DNA of 64,000 bases from Bathymodiolus japonicus methanotrophic gill symbiont (GTDB lineage Bacteria; Pseudomonadota; Gammaproteobacteria; Methylococcales; Methylomonadaceae): positions 186,001 to 250,000 of the forward strand of contig NZ_BLYC01000001.1 of the NCBI RefSeq assembly GCF_019721995.1, read 5' to 3'. The notes beneath the pieces were generated by a model that ran no database searches, was not told the DNA's origin, and saw nothing but the letters and a program-made list of their open reading frames with translations. Position 1 is the stretch's first letter. Every line of letters begins with the position of its first letter. Made by a program: the position numbers and the translations under genes. Positions 1 through 58,712 of this stretch are shown piece by piece.

Positions 1-54
1 ACGAATTATGGCGACAGGAGTCCCGGAATTTCGTGAGGTAGCATGGCGCGCCTG
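1..54 (+). repeat. tail of a type-B structured element
   Basis: The first 54 bases match the last 54 bases of the B elements at 5929-6208 and 40262-40541, ending in the shared GCGCGCCTG. The ATTATGG spelling marks it as B rather than A, which has ATTACGG. The rest lies outside the window. Confidence 0.85.
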
Positions 55-5002: not shown

Positions 5003-5249
5003 TATCGCAAAAATCGCAGGAATTATCGATCATTAATATGTTATCGTGACTCTATTTTATTTAAACACAGATTAGTTATTTAATGACAGAGCAAACTGGA
5101 TTTAATCTCTTAGGCAATAATAAGACGCAGATTTTAATTCTGGGTAGCATGCCCAGTGTTGTCTCTATAGCGAAGCAGCAATACTATGCTCATCCGCGTA
5201 ATGCATTCTGGCGAATTATGGCTGCACTGTTTAATGATAATCAGCCTAT

Positions 5250-5509
5250 CGCTGTCAGCCCCGGACGGGCTGATAGTCTCCAGAAGGCGCAGGGAAATTT
5301 GCCAATCCGAAGTGCGCGATAGCGCGCGAGGGAGGCTAAAATTTTATCCCGAATAGCCGTAGAGCCATTTGTGGTAGCCATGACTGAGCTGCTTTGTGCT
5401 CAGTCTGTGGCGGACGCAGGGCGGCTGGAGCATCTCCTATTCGCTGCGTAGGTGAACGAATTACGGCGACAGGAGTCCCGGAATTTCGTGAGGTAGCATG
5501 GCGCGCCTG
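5250..5509 (+). repeat. structured element A, copy 1
   Basis: 260-bp element with the exact A ends (CGCTGTCAG to GCGCGCCTG), inserted in the deoxyinosine glycosylase gene after codon 55. No flanking duplication is visible. Internal hairpins are described in the findings. Confidence 0.9.
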
Positions 5510-5783
5510 TGCTTACCCGCCAGGCTAATAAGATTCTGGAGGCTCAGGGTATTGCTATCTGTGACATCAGTGTTCCCCTATCAATTGAGGCCGTGAAACT
5601 AACCTCGCCACAAGAGAGCTCATAAAGCACTGTAAAGACATTCCTGTTATTATTGCGTTTTGAACTGCTCGAATGGTATACGAGCTGATACGAGATATTC
5701 TTGCCTGGAAAAATAATGGATTCACAAAACGATCTCGTTTTTGAGCCTGTTGCTGCCTTATCTCCAGAGCCTCGCTATATTTT

Positions 5784-6374
5784 TTATCCGATGGATGAAT
5801 CAGTATGATCTCGTAACACAGGTATTTCTTGATGTCTCTGAGTTCCGTTTGTCACCAGACAAAGAAATCTGAGCAACCCACTTCTGAGATTCAACGCGTA
5901 AATCCCCCCGGCCGCATAAACTTTCCCCCGCTGAAAATCATGGAAACGGAGCTTAGCGAAGTGGTGATTTTTAGTCCCTGATAGGCGACAGGGAAATTCG
6001 CTGATTCGACGTGTGCTAGCTGCACGCGAGAGGAGCAAGAATTGCATTCCGAATAGCCGTCCAGCCAGTGAGGTAGTAATGACGAAGCGGCTTTTGTGCG
6101 TAGTCGTTGCGGACGCAGGGCGTTCAGGGCATCTCCCATCCGCTGCGTAGGTGAATGAATTATGGCGACAGGAGTCCCGGAATTTCGTGAGGTAGCATGG
6201 CGCGCCTGCGACTACACTGATACAGCATAATAACCCAAGGCGAATAAAGTCGATATCCTTCAGCTCTGGGCATGAACGAGCCCACAAAGGATGGCGCTCT
6301 GCTAACAGGGCACGTTCCATACTTTCATTGCAGTGTTGGTGAATATGTTCAGAGAGTGGTAGGTCTTTAAGCAT
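5784..6374 (-). pseudogene. remnant of T1 transposase
   Basis: N-terminal residues 1-56 match the intact T1 transposase (MLKDLPLSEHIHQHCNES onward) at 6208-6374. The reading then enters the B element and re-emerges in a central fragment (VYAAGGIYALNLRSGLLRF) up to the deletion near 5811. The catalytic C-terminal part is missing. Confidence 0.85.
5929..6208 (+). repeat. structured element B, copy 1
   Basis: 280-bp element from CGCTGAAAATCATGG to GCGCGCCTG inside T1c. Compared with the intact T1 copy, 265 bp of transposase sequence (equivalent to 42062-42326) is missing at this site, so the element replaces target DNA rather than simply interrupting it. Confidence 0.9.
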
Positions 6375-6577
6375 GGGTGATATCCGTTTATGAGGTGATT
6401 AAGACGGAAATTTTTAGAAGAATCTTTTCGGGAAATGCAAGCTTTATTTGAAATTATTTGTTGTTTTTTTACGGTGCCTACAGAGTATCTATTTGCTGTT
6501 ATAAGTGATTAAAATCAAAAAGATGGAAATATTCGAGTGGTGCTACCTTCAGGTAGGATATAGGCTGCTTTGTTTAG

Positions 6578-6896
6578 CCCATCTTCGTCACTTTCATCTT
6601 TCTAAGCCATTGATTCATCGGTTTAAGCGATTTTTTGTCGAAAAATTCTCTTTAAAATCAATGGTGTTTTTTTTGAAAGTTTTGTAGTGCCATTTATATT
6701 ATTTTTGTTGATAAATTCATTGACTTTTGTCAAAAAAATCATCATTATTTGAGTGTAATTTACATGCGACAAAAATACTCTAAAAAATCCAACGTTTTAT
6801 ACAAAAACACAAAATCTGTAGTGCCAACTAGCTACTTTTTAAAATTTCAACCAATTGATTTATAACAACTACATCATCAATAGTGACGAAGATGGG
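6578..6896. repeat. MITE E, copy 1
   Basis: 319-bp element with 15-bp inverted ends CCCATCTTCGTCACT / AGTGACGAAGATGGG and the target duplication TTAG. The uninterrupted site is visible at 24681 (TTTAGGTACTTC). AT-rich, no coding capacity. Confidence 0.92.
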
Positions 6897-7323
6897 TTAG
6901 GTACTTCTTCTTTCAATGGGAACACTGATGATCTGGGATGTGTTAAAATCCTGTGCCAGACAAGGCAGCCTGGATTCTGCAATCGAGGAAAGCAGTATAG
7001 AAATAAATGATTTTACCAGTTTGTTTAATTCGTTTGGCAACATTAAACAGGTGTTTTTTAATGGTGCTACGGCGCAAGCATTGTATAAAAAACATGTTTA
7101 TCCTGATTTTCCTGCTATGTATAAGGCGCTTAACTACACAAAATTACCCTCTACCAGTCCTGCCTATGCGGCTATGCCTTATCAAGATAAATTGGCTGCT
7201 TGGTCAGTACTGAAGCCATTATGTAGAGCGGACTTCAGTCCGCCAGCGCACTGTGAAACTGTAAAGGTGGACGGGTAACAATTATATGCAATACGATAAT
7301 TAATAAAGACGAATGAGTATCAG

Positions 7324-16837: not shown

Positions 16838-16904
16838 GTAGGGTGTGCTGAGGCACGAAGCGCACCATTGTGTGTGATGCGCTTCGTGCCTCAGCACATC
16901 CTAC
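16838..16904. repeat. paired REP-like palindromes (inverted)
   Basis: Two copies of the palindrome at 16349 in opposite orientation (GTAGGGTGTGCTGAGGCAC and GCGCTTCGTGCCTCAGCAC) separated by about 10 bp, a BIME-like arrangement just after the YkgJ gene. Confidence 0.7.
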
Positions 16905-16937
16905 CCATTTCAGGTTTTATTTAATCCTCAGCCTTAA

Positions 16938-17256
16938 CCCATCTTCGTCACTTTCATCTTTCTAAGCCATTGATTCATCGGTTTAAGCGATTTTTTGTCG
17001 AAAAATTCTCTTTAAAATCAATGGTGTTTTTTTTGAAAGTTTTGTAGTGCCATTTATATTATTTTTGTTGATAAATTCATTGACTTTTGTCAAAAAAATC
17101 ATCATTATTTGAGTGTAATTTACATGCGACAAAAATACTCTAAAAAATCCAACGTTTTATACAAAAACACAAAATCTGTAGTGCCAACTAGCTACTTTTT
17201 AAAATTTCAACCAATTGATTTATAACAACTACATCATCAATAGTGACGAAGATGGG
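16938..17256. repeat. MITE E, copy 2
   Basis: Full 319-bp copy in intergenic DNA with both 15-bp ends and a TTAA duplication on each side. Same orientation as copy 1 at 6578. Confidence 0.93.
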
Positions 17257-17265
17257 TTAAGCAAG

Positions 17266-17558
17266 CGCTGAAAATCAGGGAAACGGAGCCTAAGCGAAGT
17301 GATGATTTTTAGTCCGCGATAGCCGTAGGGCCGTTATTTTGTCGGAGTCTGAGCGTTAGCGAAGGTGGAGACAAAATAAAAGGCCATCCGACACGGCGTC
17401 AAGTCATTTGGAGCCTATGTTCCGACCCCTTGTTGGGTCGGGACGAGGTGACGAGGACGAATCGGGGCCGCCGGAGGCATAAGTGGTCGCGTTAAGTTTT
17501 TGCTGCTTGCTTGGGCTGGGATGCCCAAAACAAGCTTTCGCAAAAATAGCGACTCCCC
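17266..17558 (+). repeat. structured element C, copy 1
   Basis: 293-bp element running from CGCTGAAAATCAGGG to GCGACTCCCC, nine bases after MITE E. It holds a 9-bp perfect stem (TATTTTGTC/GACAAAATA) and other hairpins. The flanks do not belong to a known gene. Confidence 0.88.
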
Positions 17559-17602
17559 AAGACTTATTTTAATATTGCCAATTGACAACAGTAGATTGTA
17601 AA

Positions 17603-17756
17603 ACTCGATGTTCAAGTTTTCAGCTATAACTGGGCTAAGAAAAGTAGATTTTTCCGGCTTTGTTTTATAAGTGATTGATTTACAATGATGTTGATGCTTT
17701 CTTTGTCAGTAAAATTATCAATAAAGTCAATCAGTTAAAAAACTTGAACATCGAGT
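17603..17756. repeat. MITE G, copy 1 (T2-related ends)
   Basis: 154-bp element with inverted ends starting ACTCGATGTTCAAGTTTT, the same ends as IS4-type element T2, but with unrelated interior. AAA flanks it on both sides, consistent with a 3-bp target duplication. Confidence 0.88.
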
Positions 17757-17837
17757 AAAAGCAATACTCCTACAATATTGTGCCATAAAAAATGCTGGTA
17801 CATTATGACAACCTTTTATTTTAAAAAGAGAGCTAAA

Positions 17838-18279: not shown

Positions 18280-18743
18280 CTGAAGTTTCCCAATTATTGA
18301 GTAGCTGAAATACACAATGCTGGTGTATCGAGGTTTATTTTAGGTGGTTTTGCCATGTTTATAGCAAACCCCTACTTAATTCCCCCGCTGTCAGCCCCGG
18401 ACGGGCTGATAGTCTCCAGAAGGCGCAGGGAAATTTGCCAATCCGAAGTGCGCGATAGCGCGCGAGGGAGGCTAAAATTTTATCCCGAATAGCCGTAGAG
18501 CCATTTGTGGTAGCCATGACTGAGCTGCTTTGTGCTCAGTCTGTGGCGGACGCAGGGCGGCTGGAGCATCTCCTATTCGCTGCGTAGGTGAACGAATTAC
18601 GGCGACAGGAGTCCCGGAATTTCGTGAGGTAGCATGGCGCGCCTGTTAGGCAATAGCATTTGAAACGAATGAAAAGACTGTTTTTTTCATATAGTTGTAG
18701 CATAGTTTTAATTTTACCATAAATAATTTTTGGGAAACTTCAG
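18280..18743. repeat. MITE D, copy 2, interrupted by element A
   Basis: Both D ends are present with an 8-bp duplication CTTATTTA (18272-18279 and 18744-18751). An A element occupies 18386-18645. Without it the D copy is the normal length of 204 bp, so A inserted cleanly with no target duplication or loss. Confidence 0.95.
18386..18645 (+). repeat. structured element A, copy 2
   Basis: 260 bp inside MITE D, between AATTCCCC and TTAGGCAAT. The uninterrupted D copies read AATTCCCCTTAGGCAAT, which fixes both ends of the element to the base. Confidence 0.95.
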
Positions 18744-19474: not shown

Positions 19475-19754
19475 CTCTGAAAATCATGGAAACGGAGCTT
19501 AGCGAAGTGGTGATTTTTAGTCGCTGATAGGCGACAGGGCAATTCGCTGATTCGACGTGTGCTAGCAGCACGCGAGAGGAGCAAGAATTGCATTCCGAAT
19601 AGCCGTCCAGCCAGTGAGGTAGTAATGACGAAGCGGCTTTTGTGCGTAGTCGTTGTGGACGCAGGGTGATCAGGGCATCTCCCATCCGCTGCGTAGGTGA
19701 ACGAATTATGGCGACAGGAGTTCCGGAATTTCGTGAGGTAGCATGGCGCGCCTG
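19475..19754 (+). repeat. structured element B, copy 2
   Basis: 280 bp joining a truncated IS3 OrfA on the left to a truncated RelE-type toxin gene on the right. Neither host gene continues on the other side, so DNA was lost at the junction. The first bases read CTCTG rather than CGCTG. Confidence 0.88.
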
Positions 19755-20605: not shown

Positions 20606-20898
20606 CGCTGAAAATCAGGGAAACGTAGCCTAAGCGAAGTGAAGATTTTTAGTCCGCGATAGCCGTAGGGCCGTTGTTTTGTCGGAGTCTGAGCGTTAGC
20701 GAAGGTGGAGACAAAATAAAAGGCCATCCGACACGGCGTCAAGTCATTTGGAGCCTATGTTCCGACCCCTTGTTGGGTCGGGACGAGGTGACGAGGACGA
20801 ATCGGGGCCGCCGGAGGCATAAGTGGTCGCGTTAAGTTTTTGCCGCTTGCTTGGGCTGGGATGCCCAAAACAAGCTTTCGCAAAAATAGCGACTCCCC
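20606..20898 (+). repeat. structured element C, copy 2
   Basis: 293 bp inserted near the 3' end of the exonuclease-like gene, between codons for RRTRA and LPAKNN. The target duplication cannot be judged without an intact copy of the gene. Confidence 0.9.
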
Positions 20899-20980
20899 GC
20901 TCGTGTTCTTCTATAAGTTTCCTGGATAATAAACGCATCAGAACTGGCTCTATGTCGTGTCAGGCCAAGGTCTTTAATAA

Positions 20981-22114: not shown

Positions 22115-22374
22115 CGCTGTCAGCCCCGGACGGGCTGATAGTCTCCAGAAGGCGCAGGGAAATTTGCCAATCCGAAGTGCGCGATAGCGCGCGAGGGAGG
22201 CTAAAATTTTATCCCGAATAGCCGTAGAGCCATTTGTGATAGCCATGACTGAGCTGCCTTGTGCTCAGTCTGTGGCGGACGCAGGGCGGCTGGAGCATCT
22301 CCTATTCGCTGCGTAGGTGAACGAATTACGGCGACAGGAGTCCCGGAATTTCGTGAGGTAGCATGGCGCGCCTG
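22115..22374 (+). repeat. structured element A, copy 3
   Basis: 260 bp in the T1d transposase between ACACGCGCA and TTAAATTAT. Intact T1 copies read straight across this point with no base lost or duplicated, so this is the cleanest proof of the A ends. Confidence 0.95.
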
Positions 22375-22467
22375 TTAAATTATAGCTCATTGCAGTCAGG
22401 CGCATTTGATTTTCAAGTGAGCGGGTATTGGAAGACCAAGCTTTAGTTTCCTTGGAATTACTTTTAG

Positions 22468-22786
22468 CCCATCTTCGTCACTATTGATGATGTAGTTGTT
22501 ATAAATCAATTGGTTGAAATTTTAAAAAGTAGCCAGTTGGCACTACAGATTTTGTGTTTTTGTATAAAACGTTGGATTTTTTAGAGTATTTTTGTCGCAT
22601 GTAAATTACACTCAAATAATGATGATTTTTTTGACAAAAGTCAATGAATTTATCGACAAAAATAATATAAACGGCACTACAAAACTTTCAAAAAAAACAC
22701 CATTGATTTTAAAGAGAATTTTTCGACAAAAAACCGCTTAAACCGATGAATCAATGGCTTAGAAAGATGAAAGTGACGAAGATGGG
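22468..22786. repeat. MITE E, copy 3
   Basis: 319 bp with TTAG on both sides inside T1d, in the opposite orientation to copies 1 and 2. The empty site is visible in T1a and T1b. Confidence 0.94.
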
Positions 22787-23038
22787 TTAGTGTTATTGAA
22801 TGTCTTTTCAATCGTCCATCGCTTGAAATACAGCATGGCAATGGTTCCAGGGTTAATAGTCATTGGCAAGGTTGTCACAAACCGGTGAAGTTTTCCGGTT
22901 TCTGGATCACGGTAATCCACCACGTTAAATTTGATGCCCTTGTTTTCGTACACACTGTATGCTTCAACCCCTGTATTGATCTCATGGCGGGAGTCAAAAG
23001 GGATAGACTCAACCAGAGTCGCAATTGAATTTTCTTTT

Positions 23039-23192
23039 ACTCGATGTTCAAGTTTTCAGCTATAACTGGGCTAAGAAAAGTAAATTTTTCCGGCTTTGTT
23101 TTATAAGTGATTGATTTACAATGATGTTGATGCTTTCTTTGTCAGTAAAATTATCAATAAAATCAATCAGTTAAAAAACTTGAACATCGAGT
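23039..23192. repeat. MITE G, copy 2
   Basis: 154 bp with T2-type ends inside T1d. Compared with the empty site (TTTTCTTTTAGCATTG) three T residues are duplicated, agreeing with the 3-bp duplication of copy 1. Confidence 0.92.
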
Positions 23193-23304
23193 TTTAGCAT
23201 TGAAATCATGTAATTAGCATGTCGTTTCTGCCGATCCCACCAGACAAAGTCGGTGACGGCTTTATCGTAGACATAGAGATGTTTCTGAGAGCTGTTATTT
23301 CCCT

Positions 23305-23597
23305 CGCTGAAAATCAGGGAAACGGAGCCTAAGCGAAGTGATGATTTTTAGTCCGCGATAGCCGTAGGGCCGTTGTTTTGTCGGAGTCTGAGCGTTAGCG
23401 AAGGTGGAGACAAAATAAAAGGCCATCCGACACGGCGTCAAGTCATTTGGAGCCTATGTTCCGACCCCTTGTTGGGTCGGGACGAGGTGACGAGGACGAA
23501 TCGGGGCCGCCGGAGGCATAAGTGGTCGCGTTAAGTTTTTGCTGCTTGCTTGGGCTGGGATGCCCAAAACAAGCTTTCGCAAAAATAGCGACTCCCC
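23305..23597 (+). repeat. structured element C, copy 3
   Basis: 293 bp inside T1d. Intact T1 copies read ATTTCCCTTGTTTTGC here, while the flanks read ATTTCCCT and ATTGTTTTGC, so two extra bases remain at the right junction. Confidence 0.92.
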
Positions 23598-24016
23598 ATT
23601 GTTTTGCTTTTCAATATGATCTCGTAACACAGGTATTTCATGATGTCTCTGAGTTCCGTTTGTCACCAGACAAAGAAATCTGAGCAACCCACTTCTGAGA
23701 TTCAACGCGTAAATCCCCCCGGCCGCATAAACTTTCCCCTTGCTGTTTTTTTCAGTATGGCAGGCATGATCAATAAAATGTCCATCCGCTGCTTCTATGG
23801 TGTATTCGTCAAGTTCCGGGAATGCTTTAAGATAATCAATGCCTTGCGATAGCAGTGTTTCAGCGTGAAGATGATAGCTCTGCTGTTCAAATGCCTCAAG
23901 CATACTTGTTCGTCTATGCGACTTCAGTGATTTAAAATACGTTGAGTGGGGAAGCAGCTGGCCATAAATCTGTTCATTGGTTTGGAGGAAATGGCGACCA
24001 CTATCGACTACACTGA

Positions 24017-24443
24017 CGCTGAAAATCAGGGAAACGTAGCCTACGCTGAAAATCATGGAAACGGAGCTTAGCGAAGTGGTGATTTTTAGCCCCTGATAGG
24101 CGACAGGGCAATTCGCTGATTCGACGTGTGCTAGCAGCACGCGAGAGGAGCAAGAATTGCATTCCGAATAGCCGTCCAGCCAGCGCTGTCAGCCCCGGAC
24201 GGGCTGATAGTCTCCAGAAGGCGCAGGGAAATTTGCCAATCCGAAGTGCGCGATAGCGCGCGAGGGAGGCTAAAATTTTATCCCGAATAGCCGTAGAGCC
24301 ATTTGTGGTAGCCATGACTGAGCTGCTTTGTGCTCAGTCTGTGGCGGACGCAGGGCGGCTGGAGCATCTCCTATTCGCTGCGTAGGTGAACGAATTACGG
24401 CGACAGGAGTCCCGGAATTTCGTGAGGTAGCATGGCGCGCCTG
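24017..24443 (+). repeat. composite of C head, B head and full A
   Basis: 24017-24043 is the first 27 bases of C, 24044-24183 the first 140 bases of B, and 24184-24443 a complete A. No C or B tail follows; T1d resumes directly after A, with 114 bp of T1 missing (equivalent to 41936-42049). Confidence 0.9.
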
Positions 24444-25004
24444 GTTGGTGAATATGTTCAGAGAGTGGTAGGTCTTTAAGCATGGGTGATATCCGTTTAT
24501 GAGGTGATTAAAACGGAAATTTTTAGAAAATTTTTTCGGCAATTGCAAGCTTTATTTGAAATTATTTGTTGTTTTTTTACGGTGCCTACAGAGTGTCTAT
24601 TTGCTGTTATAAGTGATTAAAATCAAAAATATGGAAATATTCGAGTGGTGCTACCTTCAGGTAGGTTATAGGCTGCTTTGTTTAGGTACTTCTTCTTTCA
24701 ATGGGAACACTGATGATTTTATTAAAGGATCAGAGCAAAACGTGACGCAAGAAAAAACAGATAGAAACGTATTAAAACAATTACGTAGTGAAAACAAAAA
24801 ATTAAAGAAAGAGCTTAATCGCAAAGAGAAAGCACTTGCAGAAACAGTGGCCTTATTGGTGCTTAGAAAAAAGCTGGATGCGCTCTGGGAGGAAAACGAG
24901 GACGCTTAATTCCTCACTCAGAGCGCGTAAATTATGTCACATGGATCAATGAAGCCATTGGACAAGGTGCCAGAAAGGGCAAAGCCTGTGATATTGTTGG
25001 TATC

Positions 25005-26536
25005 ACTCGATGTTCAAGTTTTTGATATTGAGAAGGTAAAATCAGGTATTCTGAGGTTGTTGTAATTTTATCGGTGTAAGCCCATGTTAATGAATGCCCC
25101 AGCCACCTTTATCCAAAGCTATATTGACGATTTAAATGATTCGCTCAATCAGCTAAAACCCGGAGCCGCTTTGACACGGATTCAAGCCGCTTGATTGGGC
25201 ACTTGTTTAACGGGCATACTGCTAATGAACTCTGTTTGCTGGGCTAAGTTTGAGCGAGCAAGCCTTGGAGATTGCAAGGTAGCCGCATTATCCTGGGTGT
25301 TTCGTAAAGCAAGTATACCCTGGGACTGGTTGCTACGGGTGAGTGTGGTCTTAATTTTAAAACGTTATGCATTACTGAAGGTGTGTTGGCCTTTGATGAA
25401 TCAGACCGAGCACGATCTAAGTCTACAAAACGTATTTATAAGGTTTACAAGCAGAAACACAAAGGCTCCGGCGGGTATGTTAATGGACAAACGATAGTAT
25501 GATTGCTGCTAGTTACCTCATCCATTACAGTGCCTGTCGGTTTTTTCTTTTATATGCCGGATCCAGCCTTAAAGCAGTGGGATAAAGAAGATAAACGGTT
25601 GAAAAAGAGCGGTATAGCAAAAAAAGATCGGCCTATTAAGCCTGAACGTGACAGTGCCTACCCGACCAAAACAGAGATTGCATTAGGCTTATTAAAAGAG
25701 TTTAAAGTTGCGCATAGCCTGATTAAAATTAAAGGCGTACTGGCTGATGCGCTGTATGGTGAAAAGCCTTTATGGACGAAGCCGCTAAAGAATCTGGAGG
25801 CTCGCAGGTGATTAGCCAATTACGTAAAAACCAAAATATTGAATATAGAGGTAGAATAAGGTCAGTCGAGAGCTACTTTAATTCGATTAACAAAGGCATT
25901 GATCAGATAATACGTGTACGTGGCGGCAAAGAGATTAAAGTGACTGTCAGCAGTGCACGATTGAAGGTGAGTTCTCACAGTAAAAAACGCTTTGTCATTG
26001 CCTTAAAATATGACGGTGAAAACGACTATCGCTATTTAGTGGCGACAGACCTGACTTGGCGCACACAAGATATTATTCAAGCCTATACGTTGAGATGGCT
26101 GATTGAGGTTTTCTTTGAGGACTGGAAGCTTTAATGAAGGATGGGGGCGTGAGGCCAAACAATTAGATGAAGAGGGATCAAACCGTGGCCTGATTCTGAG
26201 TCTTTTGTTTGACCATTGTCTTCTCCTTCACCCAGAGCAAATAGCCCGCATTGAAAGCAAACTACCTGCGTATACCATAGGAAGCTTACAGCGCAAGTCT
26301 CAAATGGATGTACTGCTTGAGTTCATCACGTCATTGCTAGAGTTTCCAGATCCTGGTGATAAGCTGAAAGAGTTAGGTGAATTAATAAAGGATGTGTTTC
26401 AACTGATGCCATCAGGAAAACATATGATTGGCAGAGATTTAGGGCGCTTAGGGCCAACACCATCATTAAAGTATTGTTCTGCTGGGTGAAGGTAAGAGTT
26501 TGATGGCAATGGGATGGAAAAACTTGAACATCGAGT
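25005..26536 (+). mobile_element. IS4-type element T2, copy a (frameshifted)
   Basis: 1532 bp between inverted ends ACTCGATGTTCAAGTTTTT and AAAAACTTGAACATCGAGT, inserted in IS-X1 orfB. No target duplication is visible, and coding sequence of orfB is missing at the junction, suggesting an adjacent deletion. Confidence 0.9.
25083..26490 (+). pseudogene. T2 transposase, frameshifted
   Basis: IS4-superfamily DDE transposase with the Y-x2-R-x3-E-x6-K signature (YTLRWLIEVFFEDWK) and the catalytic Asp in GVLADALYG. Several frameshifts (near 25200, 25500, 25770 and 26130) break it; copy b at 40542 keeps the same C-terminal region open. Confidence 0.88.
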
Positions 26537-26871
26537 AATAATAAATTAAGCGAATATGAGCAACTTGCTATTTTAATGACCTGTAATGAGGACGAGTATG
26601 CCAATTTACCACCGAGTCAAATCGTCCCTATCCTGGCAGACAAAGGCATTTACATTGCCTCCGAATCATCATTTTATCGAGTGTTGCATAAAGCAGAACA
26701 AGTCACACATAGAGGGCGGGCTAAAGAGCGCAAAAACACCTCCAAGCCAACGAGTTATATCGCAGAAAAAGCGAACCAGGTATGGACGTGGGATATCAGC
26801 TACATGCCAACACCCATCGTGGGTCAGTTCTACTATTTATATATGATAGAGGACATTTATAGCCGAAAATC

Positions 26872-27164
26872 GGGGAGTCGCTATTTTTGCGAAAGCTTGT
26901 TTTGGGCATCCCAGCCCAAGCAAGCAGCAAAAACTTAACGCGACCACTTATGCCTCCGGCGGCCCCGATTCGTCCTCGTCACCTCGTCCCGACCCAACAA
27001 GGGGTCGGAACATAGGCTCCAAATGACTTGACGCCGTGTCGGATGGCCTTTTATTTTGTCTCCACCTTCGCTAACGCTCAGACTCCGACAAAACAACGGC
27101 CCTACGGCTATCGCGGACTAAAAATCTTCACTTCGCTAAAGCTCCGTTTCCCTGATTTTCGGCG
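26872..27164 (-). repeat. structured element C, copy 4
   Basis: 293 bp, inverted, in IS-X1 orfB. The dinucleotide AT is present on both sides (26869-26870 and 27165-27166); removing one AT and the element restores RKIVGAEVYEQES in frame. Confidence 0.92.
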
Positions 27165-27244: not shown

Positions 27245-27504
27245 CAGGCGCGCCATGCTACCTCACGAAATTCCGGGACTCCTGTCGCCGTAATTCGTTC
27301 ACCTACGCAGCGAATAGGAGATGCTCCAGCCGCCCTGCGTCCGCCACAGACTGAGCACAAAGCAGCTCAGTCATGGCTACCACAAATGGCTCTACGGCTA
27401 TTCGGGATAAAATTTTAGCCTCCCTCGCGCGCTATCGCGCACTTCGGATTGGCAAATTTCCCTGCGCCTTCTGGAGACTATCAGCCCGTCCGGGGCTGAC
27501 AGCG
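27245..27504 (-). repeat. structured element A, copy 4
   Basis: 260 bp, inverted, in IS-X1 orfB between AAGGAAAA and AATGATG. Exact removal restores SLLKEKMMYNPLVLHSDNG in frame with no duplicated bases. Confidence 0.93.
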
Positions 27505-40261: not shown

Positions 40262-40541
40262 CGCTGAAAATCATGGAAACGGAGCTTAGCGAAGTGGTGA
40301 TTTTTAGTCCCTGATAGGCGACAGGGCAATTCGCTGATTCGACGTGTGCTAGTAGCACGCGAGAGGAGCAAGAATTGCATTCCGAATAGCCGTCCAGCCA
40401 GTGAGGTAGTAATGACGAAGCGTCTTTTGTGCGTAGTCGTTGCGGACGCAGGGCGTTCAGGGCATCTCCCATCCGCTGCGTAGGTGAACGAATTATGGCG
40501 ACAGGAGTCCCGGAATTTCGTGAGGTAGCATGGCGCGCCTG
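40262..40541 (+). repeat. structured element B, copy 3
   Basis: 280 bp joining a truncated MITE D on the left to a T2 element lacking its first about 420 bp on the right. As at 5929 and 19475, DNA on one or both sides was lost. Confidence 0.9.
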
Positions 40542-58212: not shown

Positions 58213-58712
58213 CTGAAGTTTCCCAATAATTATTTATGGTAAAATTGAAACTATGCTACAACTATATGAAAAAAAACAGTCTTTTCATTCGTTTCAAATG
58301 CTATTGCCTAAGGGGAATTAAGTAGGGGTTTGCTATAAACATGGCAAACGCTGAAAATCCTGGAAACGGAGCTTTAGCGAAGTGAAGATTTTTAGTCCGC
58401 GATAGCCGTAGGGCCGTTGTTTTGTCGGAGTCTGAGCGTTAGCGAAGGTGGAGACAAAATAAAAGGCCATCCGACACGGCGTCAAGTCATTTGGAGCCTA
58501 TGTTCCGACCCCTTGTTGGGTCGGGACGAGGTGACGAGGACGAATCGGGGCCGCCGGAGGCATAAGTGGTCGCGTTAAGTTTTTGCTGCTTGCTTGGGCT
58601 GGGATGCCCAAAACAAGCTTTCGCAAAAATAGCGACTCCCCAAACCACCTAAAATAAACCTCGATACACCAGCATTGTGTATTTCAGCTACTCAATAATT
58701 GGGAAACTTCAG
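58213..58712. repeat. MITE D, copy 6, interrupted by element C
   Basis: Inverted relative to the other D copies, with an 8-bp duplication TTTATTTA (58205-58212, 58713-58720). Element C is inserted at 58349-58641. Confidence 0.94.
58349..58641 (+). repeat. structured element C, copy 5
   Basis: 293 bp inside MITE D. The empty D site reads GGCAAAACCACC; here three A residues are present on each side (six in total versus four), giving a 2-bp duplication AA. Confidence 0.94.

Follow-up and report, generated by a model that had tools for sequence, protein, structure and literature searches.

The window analyzed here is the whole stretch of 64,000 nucleotides (nt) from the Bathymodiolus japonicus methanotrophic gill symbiont (contig NZ_BLYC01000001.1, positions 186,001 to 250,000), in which three types of short repeated insert, elements A, B and C, are found. 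The reference copy of element A, 260 nt in length (CGCTG...GCGCGCCTG), occupies positions 22115..22374 on the forward strand, and the same target also exists empty, as CGCATTAAAT. Further full copies of A lie at 5250..5509, 18386..18645 and 24184..24443 on the forward strand and at 27245..27504 on the reverse strand. All were located by sequence match; for that at 18386, the empty site, AATTCCCC followed by TTAGGC, is also present in the window at approximately 21087. The copy within 5120-5560 interrupts a reading frame that resembles a DNA glycosylase gene. Element B, 280 nt in length, is represented by full copies on the forward strand at 5929..6208, 19475..19754 (starting with CTCTG) and 40262..40541, and by a 5' part at 24044..24183, to which the A copy at 24184 is directly attached; an A/B-type tail lies at the left edge of the window (1..54, forward strand, end motif at 26-52). 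Full copies of element C were matched on the forward strand at 17266..17560 (293 nt plus AA), 20606..20900 (293 plus GC), 23305..23599 (293 plus AT, with the empty form ATTTCCCT joined to TGTTTTGC) and 58349..58643, the final two bases of the last being set by analogy, and on the reverse strand at 26870..27164, and a 27-nt head fragment matched at 24017..24043 on the forward strand. By chance, 0.00, 0.00 and 0.02 occurrences per window would be expected for the three end motifs tested. The window sequence thus reproduces the lengths and copy numbers originally noted for A (260 bp, five full copies) and B (280 bp, three full copies, one partial copy and one tail). The count first given for C, five full copies and one partial, also stands, while its length of 293 bp requires correction, because empty sites give 293 + 2 nt. 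As noted at the outset, no terminal inverted repeats (TIRs) were visible by eye, and the elements contain no protein; no coding version was seen.

The symbiont genome is a 4.97 Mb draft in 109 contigs, from which 41 stretches totaling 864 kb, the window included, were sampled. In these, 90 complete copies of A, 66 of B and 87 of C were counted, 243 in all, a number that does not represent a density estimate because many stretches were chosen around known copies. For determination of the boundaries, 52 insertion records of A, 22 of B and 50 of C, 124 in total, were compared with uninterrupted forms of the same sites. An empty form was found for 49 of the 124, and in none was the target duplicated or lost; four empty sites also exist elsewhere in a form of slightly different length. 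The inserted length was 260 nt in all 24 comparisons for A and 280 nt in all three for B, and for C it was 295 nt in 21 of 22 and 294 nt in the other, so that the exact ends proposed earlier are confirmed by this comparison. Both hallmarks of miniature inverted-repeat transposable elements (MITEs), TIRs (by eye) and a target-site duplication (TSD), were absent, the latter in the 49 records with an empty form.

It can be observed that the fourth base before the left end (position -4) is C in 241 of the 243 full copies, against a C frequency of 0.212. Among the 219 flanks that differ from one another, 217 have it (84 of 85 for A, 61 of 62 for B and all 72 for C). Every other position from -8 to +4 carries at most 0.32 bit, with a mild preference of element A for T at +1 and +2. 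The same C was found in 24 of 26 flanks, two being the same flank, in genus g11 (exceptions L335 and L344; two further loci are without a head), and in eight of nine flanks on a Methylomonas plasmid. At the right ends, CCTG (A and B), CCGA, CCAA or CCGC (C) and CTTG, a C is held at the same distance. Since the C sits equally far from the left and the right cut, both cuts fall directly after C-N-N-N. The terminal dinucleotide of C varies: among 60 copies, GA occurred 29 times, AA 17, GC 8 and GT 3, with three singles. Copies with identical 293-nt bodies differ in this dinucleotide (for example L031-L060), and therefore its change seems tied to movement. Free capture of flanking bases was rejected as its source, since the dinucleotide is mostly a purine followed by A, C or T, with CG in only 3 of 87. 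An occasional slip of the cut, counting three bases from one of four adjacent Cs, could be a partial cause of the variation.

The elements are modular. A and B are approximately 80% alike over about 235 nt, the last 65 bp being nearly identical, while the first 59 nt or so are common to B and C at 88%. B can therefore be described as a C-type head on an A-type body, and the exchange of heads and tails suspected at the outset is real, although its extent had been set too short: the tail of about 65 bp shared by A and B is confirmed but the rest does not simply diverge, and the common head of B and C is longer than the 45 bp first assigned to it. Additional head and tail types occur in other genomes. 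Type E (CGCTGCGAAACC...GCCGACACTCGCCGA) is present in genome G107 as eight copies that are 98.5-100% identical (L204-L217), and type F of genus g11 (L320-L344) combines a C-type head with the tail ...CTTGGCGCGCTTG. Across types, the length ranges from 260 to 307 nt.

The fold was analyzed in an alignment of 16 C-type elements from 16 genomes. Four of the 20 elements found by pattern were left out, namely L084, L113 and L140, from genomes already represented or near to these, and L091, which starts with CGTTG. The predicted fold comprises 67 pairs, 18 of them changed on both sides, and covers most of the element length. Double-change cells numbered 68, compared with 20.2 in shuffles, none of 500 being as high, although the structure was derived from the alignment on which it was tested, which favors it; shifting the alignment by one to three columns collapses the signal. 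Folding is more favorable for the given strand (-63.5) than for the complementary one (-55.2), and the paired columns contain 103 GU cells and 10 AC cells. As single DNA sequences, A and C fold better than shuffles (z approximately -3), and B no better (z 0.0). The heads of A, B, C, D and E share, by eye, a hairpin foot CTG...TAG with a G.T/U pair. In the 16 C-type elements the predicted end hairpins are helix 1 (columns 2-50) and a terminal stem (columns 226-229/323-326), within which the right-end C at -4 pairs with a stem G (columns 227/325) in 15 of 16. For A and B, too, the predicted folds place the corresponding C in a base pair of the terminal stem.

In two of the four genomes tested, the orientation of the copies follows GC skew. 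The skew was computed with element copies masked in the symbiont's own genome and taken from the nearest 20-kb sample in other genomes. In the former, 174 of 243 copies follow the skew (p 1e-11; A 67/90, B 50/66, C 57/87), the folded strand being the lagging-strand template. With |skew| restricted to values of 0.04 or more, 112 of 143 copies agreed, and when stretches were counted by majority, ties and the window left out, 30 of 35 did. In G076, the folded strand is the lagging-strand template in all 11 copies with a body match, two of these copies being located at a turn of the skew. A tail found alone also agrees, and a head found alone does not. Such an orientation, seen in two of four genomes, suggests single-strand transposition. 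Together with the covarying fold, it supports the earlier proposal of a machinery that reads folded nucleic acid.

An RNA route would give the same lagging-strand orientation, as is known from group II introns. According to this explanation, the RNA of the element, acting as a ribozyme or ribonucleoprotein, attaches itself to DNA that is single-stranded at forks, and a reverse transcriptase using Okazaki fragments as primers then copies it, in the manner of endonuclease-less group II introns. The covarying fold and the many G-U cells agree with it, although DNA hairpins tolerate G-T pairs too. The reverse transcriptase domain RVT_1 was found in 9 of 10 element-rich genomes, with no hit in G022 and only a fragment in G143. 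Searches of Rfam gave no match in the window at gathering scores and, for single C and A copies with E up to 10, chance-level matches only; moreover, no intron ends or domain V were visible by eye. The RNA route is consequently regarded as doubtful. Exact insertion and an RNA-like fold could also be expected of self-splicing introns or other spliced inserts. Among the 76 of 243 copies that lie in open frames of at least 140 codons (frames that are ORF-like only, ORF being open reading frame; skew unmasked), 33 are inserted in sense and 43 in antisense, so that sense insertion is not required, and splicing as an explanation is extremely improbable. Of the sense insertions in these frames, 27 of 33 follow the skew.

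The elements are abundant and widespread. The matches to C listed from the own genome include 41 of full length; 40 of these have the score of a sequence identical to that of the window across 293 nt, and the remaining one scores slightly lower. Of the 200 genomes searched, the own genome included, 100 contain matches to C and 21 contain matches to A; many matches are partial, and some of the genomes lie outside the order Methylococcales, in or near which the own genome is placed. Near-identical copies are present in G076 and G107, and G143, a member of another family, holds copies that are 95% identical, which suggests horizontal spread. The head pattern also matches one metagenome-assembled genome of Methyloglobulus. 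Copies are carried on plasmids of Methylomonas sp. AM2-LC and of a Methyloprofundus, and element matches were found on plasmids of Methylobacter sp. YRD-M1 and Methylomonas sp. UP202. Phage records gave no match to C, and the head pattern had no exact counterpart in viral contigs. Searches of an open library of papers listed no earlier account of elements of this kind.

Longer, protein-coding relatives with the same ends had been proposed as a search target; none was found in the 864 kb of the own genome or in 73 loci with a Y1 transposase gene. Head-to-tail distances in the 864 kb cluster at 260, 280 and 293, and eight are longer. As coding versions the longer units were rejected; three of 540 are read, from their length, as probable A inside B, and a unit of 2356 in L287 with a 440-codon frame is read as a probable insertion sequence (IS) inside a B copy. 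A head or tail match was present in 14 of the 73 Y1 loci. The four Y1 genes near elements that were read (L061, L069, L070, L135) look like IS200 elements or remnants with ends of their own, element copies being nested nearby. TnpB and reverse transcriptase were both rejected as common partners, the TnpB domain occurring in only three of the 10 element-rich genomes. Its absence from the other seven, the own genome included, counts against RNA-guide cassettes, in which a TnpB- or IscB-type omega RNA would read with its 3' end into the target as guide. The RNA-like fold does end at the right end, and the left-flank base could serve as a transposon-adjacent motif (TAM), but a one-base TAM would be unusual and the Rfam searches gave no HEARO match, no search having been aimed at IscB itself. 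This explanation is therefore considered very unlikely.

Regarding REP (repetitive extragenic palindromic) sequences, the elements might be giant REP-like units, each moved specifically by the domesticated REP-associated tyrosine transposase (RAYT) of its genome. The candidate in the own genome is L068 (G000:C5, approximately 60.4-61.1 kb), a REP-type Y1 transposase of 222 residues with AAAGGGGACG...CCTTT palindromes on its flanks. Of the Y1 genes there, it looks the most complete. By eye, the apical motif AGCGNNAGCG of the B, C and E heads also occurs in palindromes at the Y1 genes L179 and L184 and as a variant at L181, and cutting of minimal specificity is described for REP transposases in PMC8266576. 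Against this, the flanks of L068 gave no element match, and the palindromes at the 18 RAYT loci inspected differ from the elements (at L177, L179, L183 and L187 a frame other than that of Y1 was inspected). Beside the Y1 genes at L143-L194, only a 76-nt internal B piece (L147) and weak matches of 20-36 nt (L148, L152) were found. Furthermore, the element ends bear no GTAG or CGTC tag, and G076 and G107 contain near-identical copies yet no match to L068. Movement by a dedicated RAYT is accordingly judged unlikely.

Taken together, A, B, C and their relatives are, with a confidence slightly above even, non-autonomous transposons that move as single-stranded DNA with the help of an enzyme of HUH/Y1 type acting in trans. 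Anatomy and elimination, rather than association, make such an enzyme the best fit. A putative enzyme, either an IS200-like TnpA or a REP transposase encoded elsewhere in the genome, would bind the hairpins at both ends when the replication fork leaves the strand single. Pairing of C with the G beside each hairpin foot would provide a guide of one base. In PMC8266576, a REP transposase is described that cuts between C and T or C and A, a guide located next to a hairpin contributing to the choice. The strand would then be cut three bases downstream of the C, circularized, and pasted after another C-N-N-N. The covarying interior may keep the strand in a usable shape or have a second function as RNA. 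Heads and tails could be exchanged because, in this proposal, only the end hairpins matter.

Several results weigh against such transposition in trans. The long covarying body is superfluous for a single-strand mechanism. The enzymes of IS608 and REP cut adjacent to the bases they recognize, not three away. None of the 73 Y1 loci has its gene framed by an element head and tail. The presence of Y1_Tnp in all 10 element-rich genomes compared agrees with the proposal but says little, because 172 of 200 genomes have it anyway. In the own genome only L068 and perhaps L061, with a stop near the start by eye, look near-complete, and the lack of an L068 match in G076 and G107 applies here too. No bias of orientation was seen in G107 (4 of 12 follow the skew) or G027 (16 of 28, after removal of seven shorter matches from 35), where copies may be older or shifted by rearrangement, and only 25 of the 43 antisense insertions in frames follow the skew (p 0.36). 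A less probable alternative is that the elements constitute a new class, in which the whole unit of 260-307 nt would be a functional folded RNA or single strand with interchangeable end modules, gene-less and present across Methylococcales, and the enzyme would count off three bases starting at one C.

A single rule, a cut three bases after C, applies to three types that differ in body and ends, and these number hundreds of copies in the sampled part of the genome. The long-standing question of how protein-less REP-like repeats multiply thereby becomes testable. If the enzyme were found, the system would also make a compact single-strand insertion tool, because the target seems to need one base only and the unit is non-coding.

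Other repeat families, distinct from A, B and C, lie in the same neighborhood. A GTAG-tagged, REPIN-like REP doublet (GTAGGGTGTGCTGAGGC...GCCTCAGCACATCCTAC, by eye) is located at approximately 16840-16906. A MITE-like repeat, approximately 326 nt long and with ends that are inverted (AACCCATCTTCGTCACT, by eye), occupies 22464-22789, 6575-6899 and 16935-17260. A 161-nt repeat at 17603-17763 and 23039-23199 has ends (CTCGATGTTCAAGTTTTT) resembling those around DDE_Tnp_1 frames at approximately 25000-26540, and by eye is probably a MITE of the IS with those frames.

Compared with known systems, the elements work like IS200/IS605 and REP and are not shown to belong to either. The original view that they match nothing known was not upheld, since transposases of these two kinds could yield TSD-less, hairpin-bounded units with a C-based cut. 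Endonuclease-less mobile group II introns share a structured RNA and exact TSD-less insertion with the elements and, as far as two of four genomes are concerned, a lagging-strand bias. The elements differ in that no intron ends or domain V were visible, no Rfam match was obtained, G022 gave no reverse transcriptase hit, and antisense insertions are as common as sense. HEARO and omega RNA elements are similarly mobile units of structured RNA with or without an ORF, but the elements have no Rfam match and follow another flank rule, and seven of 10 element-rich genomes lack TnpB. Regarding IS110 and its bridge RNA, no core dinucleotide was repeated at the junctions of filled and empty sites, and no search was aimed at IS110 transposase. 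REPs are palindromes of 20-40 nt (PMC3733652), unlike elements of 260-307 nt with exact ends; the ends CGCTG, CCTG, CCGA and CTTG lack the GTAG/CGTC tag, and no full element lies beside the RAYT genes examined. Alike are the hairpins, the high copy number, the Y1 enzyme proposed in trans, the apical AGCGNNAGCG that some heads share with REPs beside two Y1 genes, and the very low cut specificity of TnpAREP in vitro (PMC8266576). From IS200/IS605 the elements differ in that, where a tetra- or pentanucleotide would be expected, they have one fixed base, three bases away from the cut, in their long covarying body, and in having no tnpA-bearing parent with the same ends in the 864 kb or the 73 Y1 loci. 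With IS200/IS605 and palindrome-associated transposable elements (PATEs) they share the absence of TIRs (by eye) and TSD, hairpin ends (predicted here) and insertion 3' of a motif; the lagging-strand template orientation is shared in two of the four genomes tested and not in the other two. PATEs, as described in PMC7290912, are also non-coding and thought to be moved in trans.
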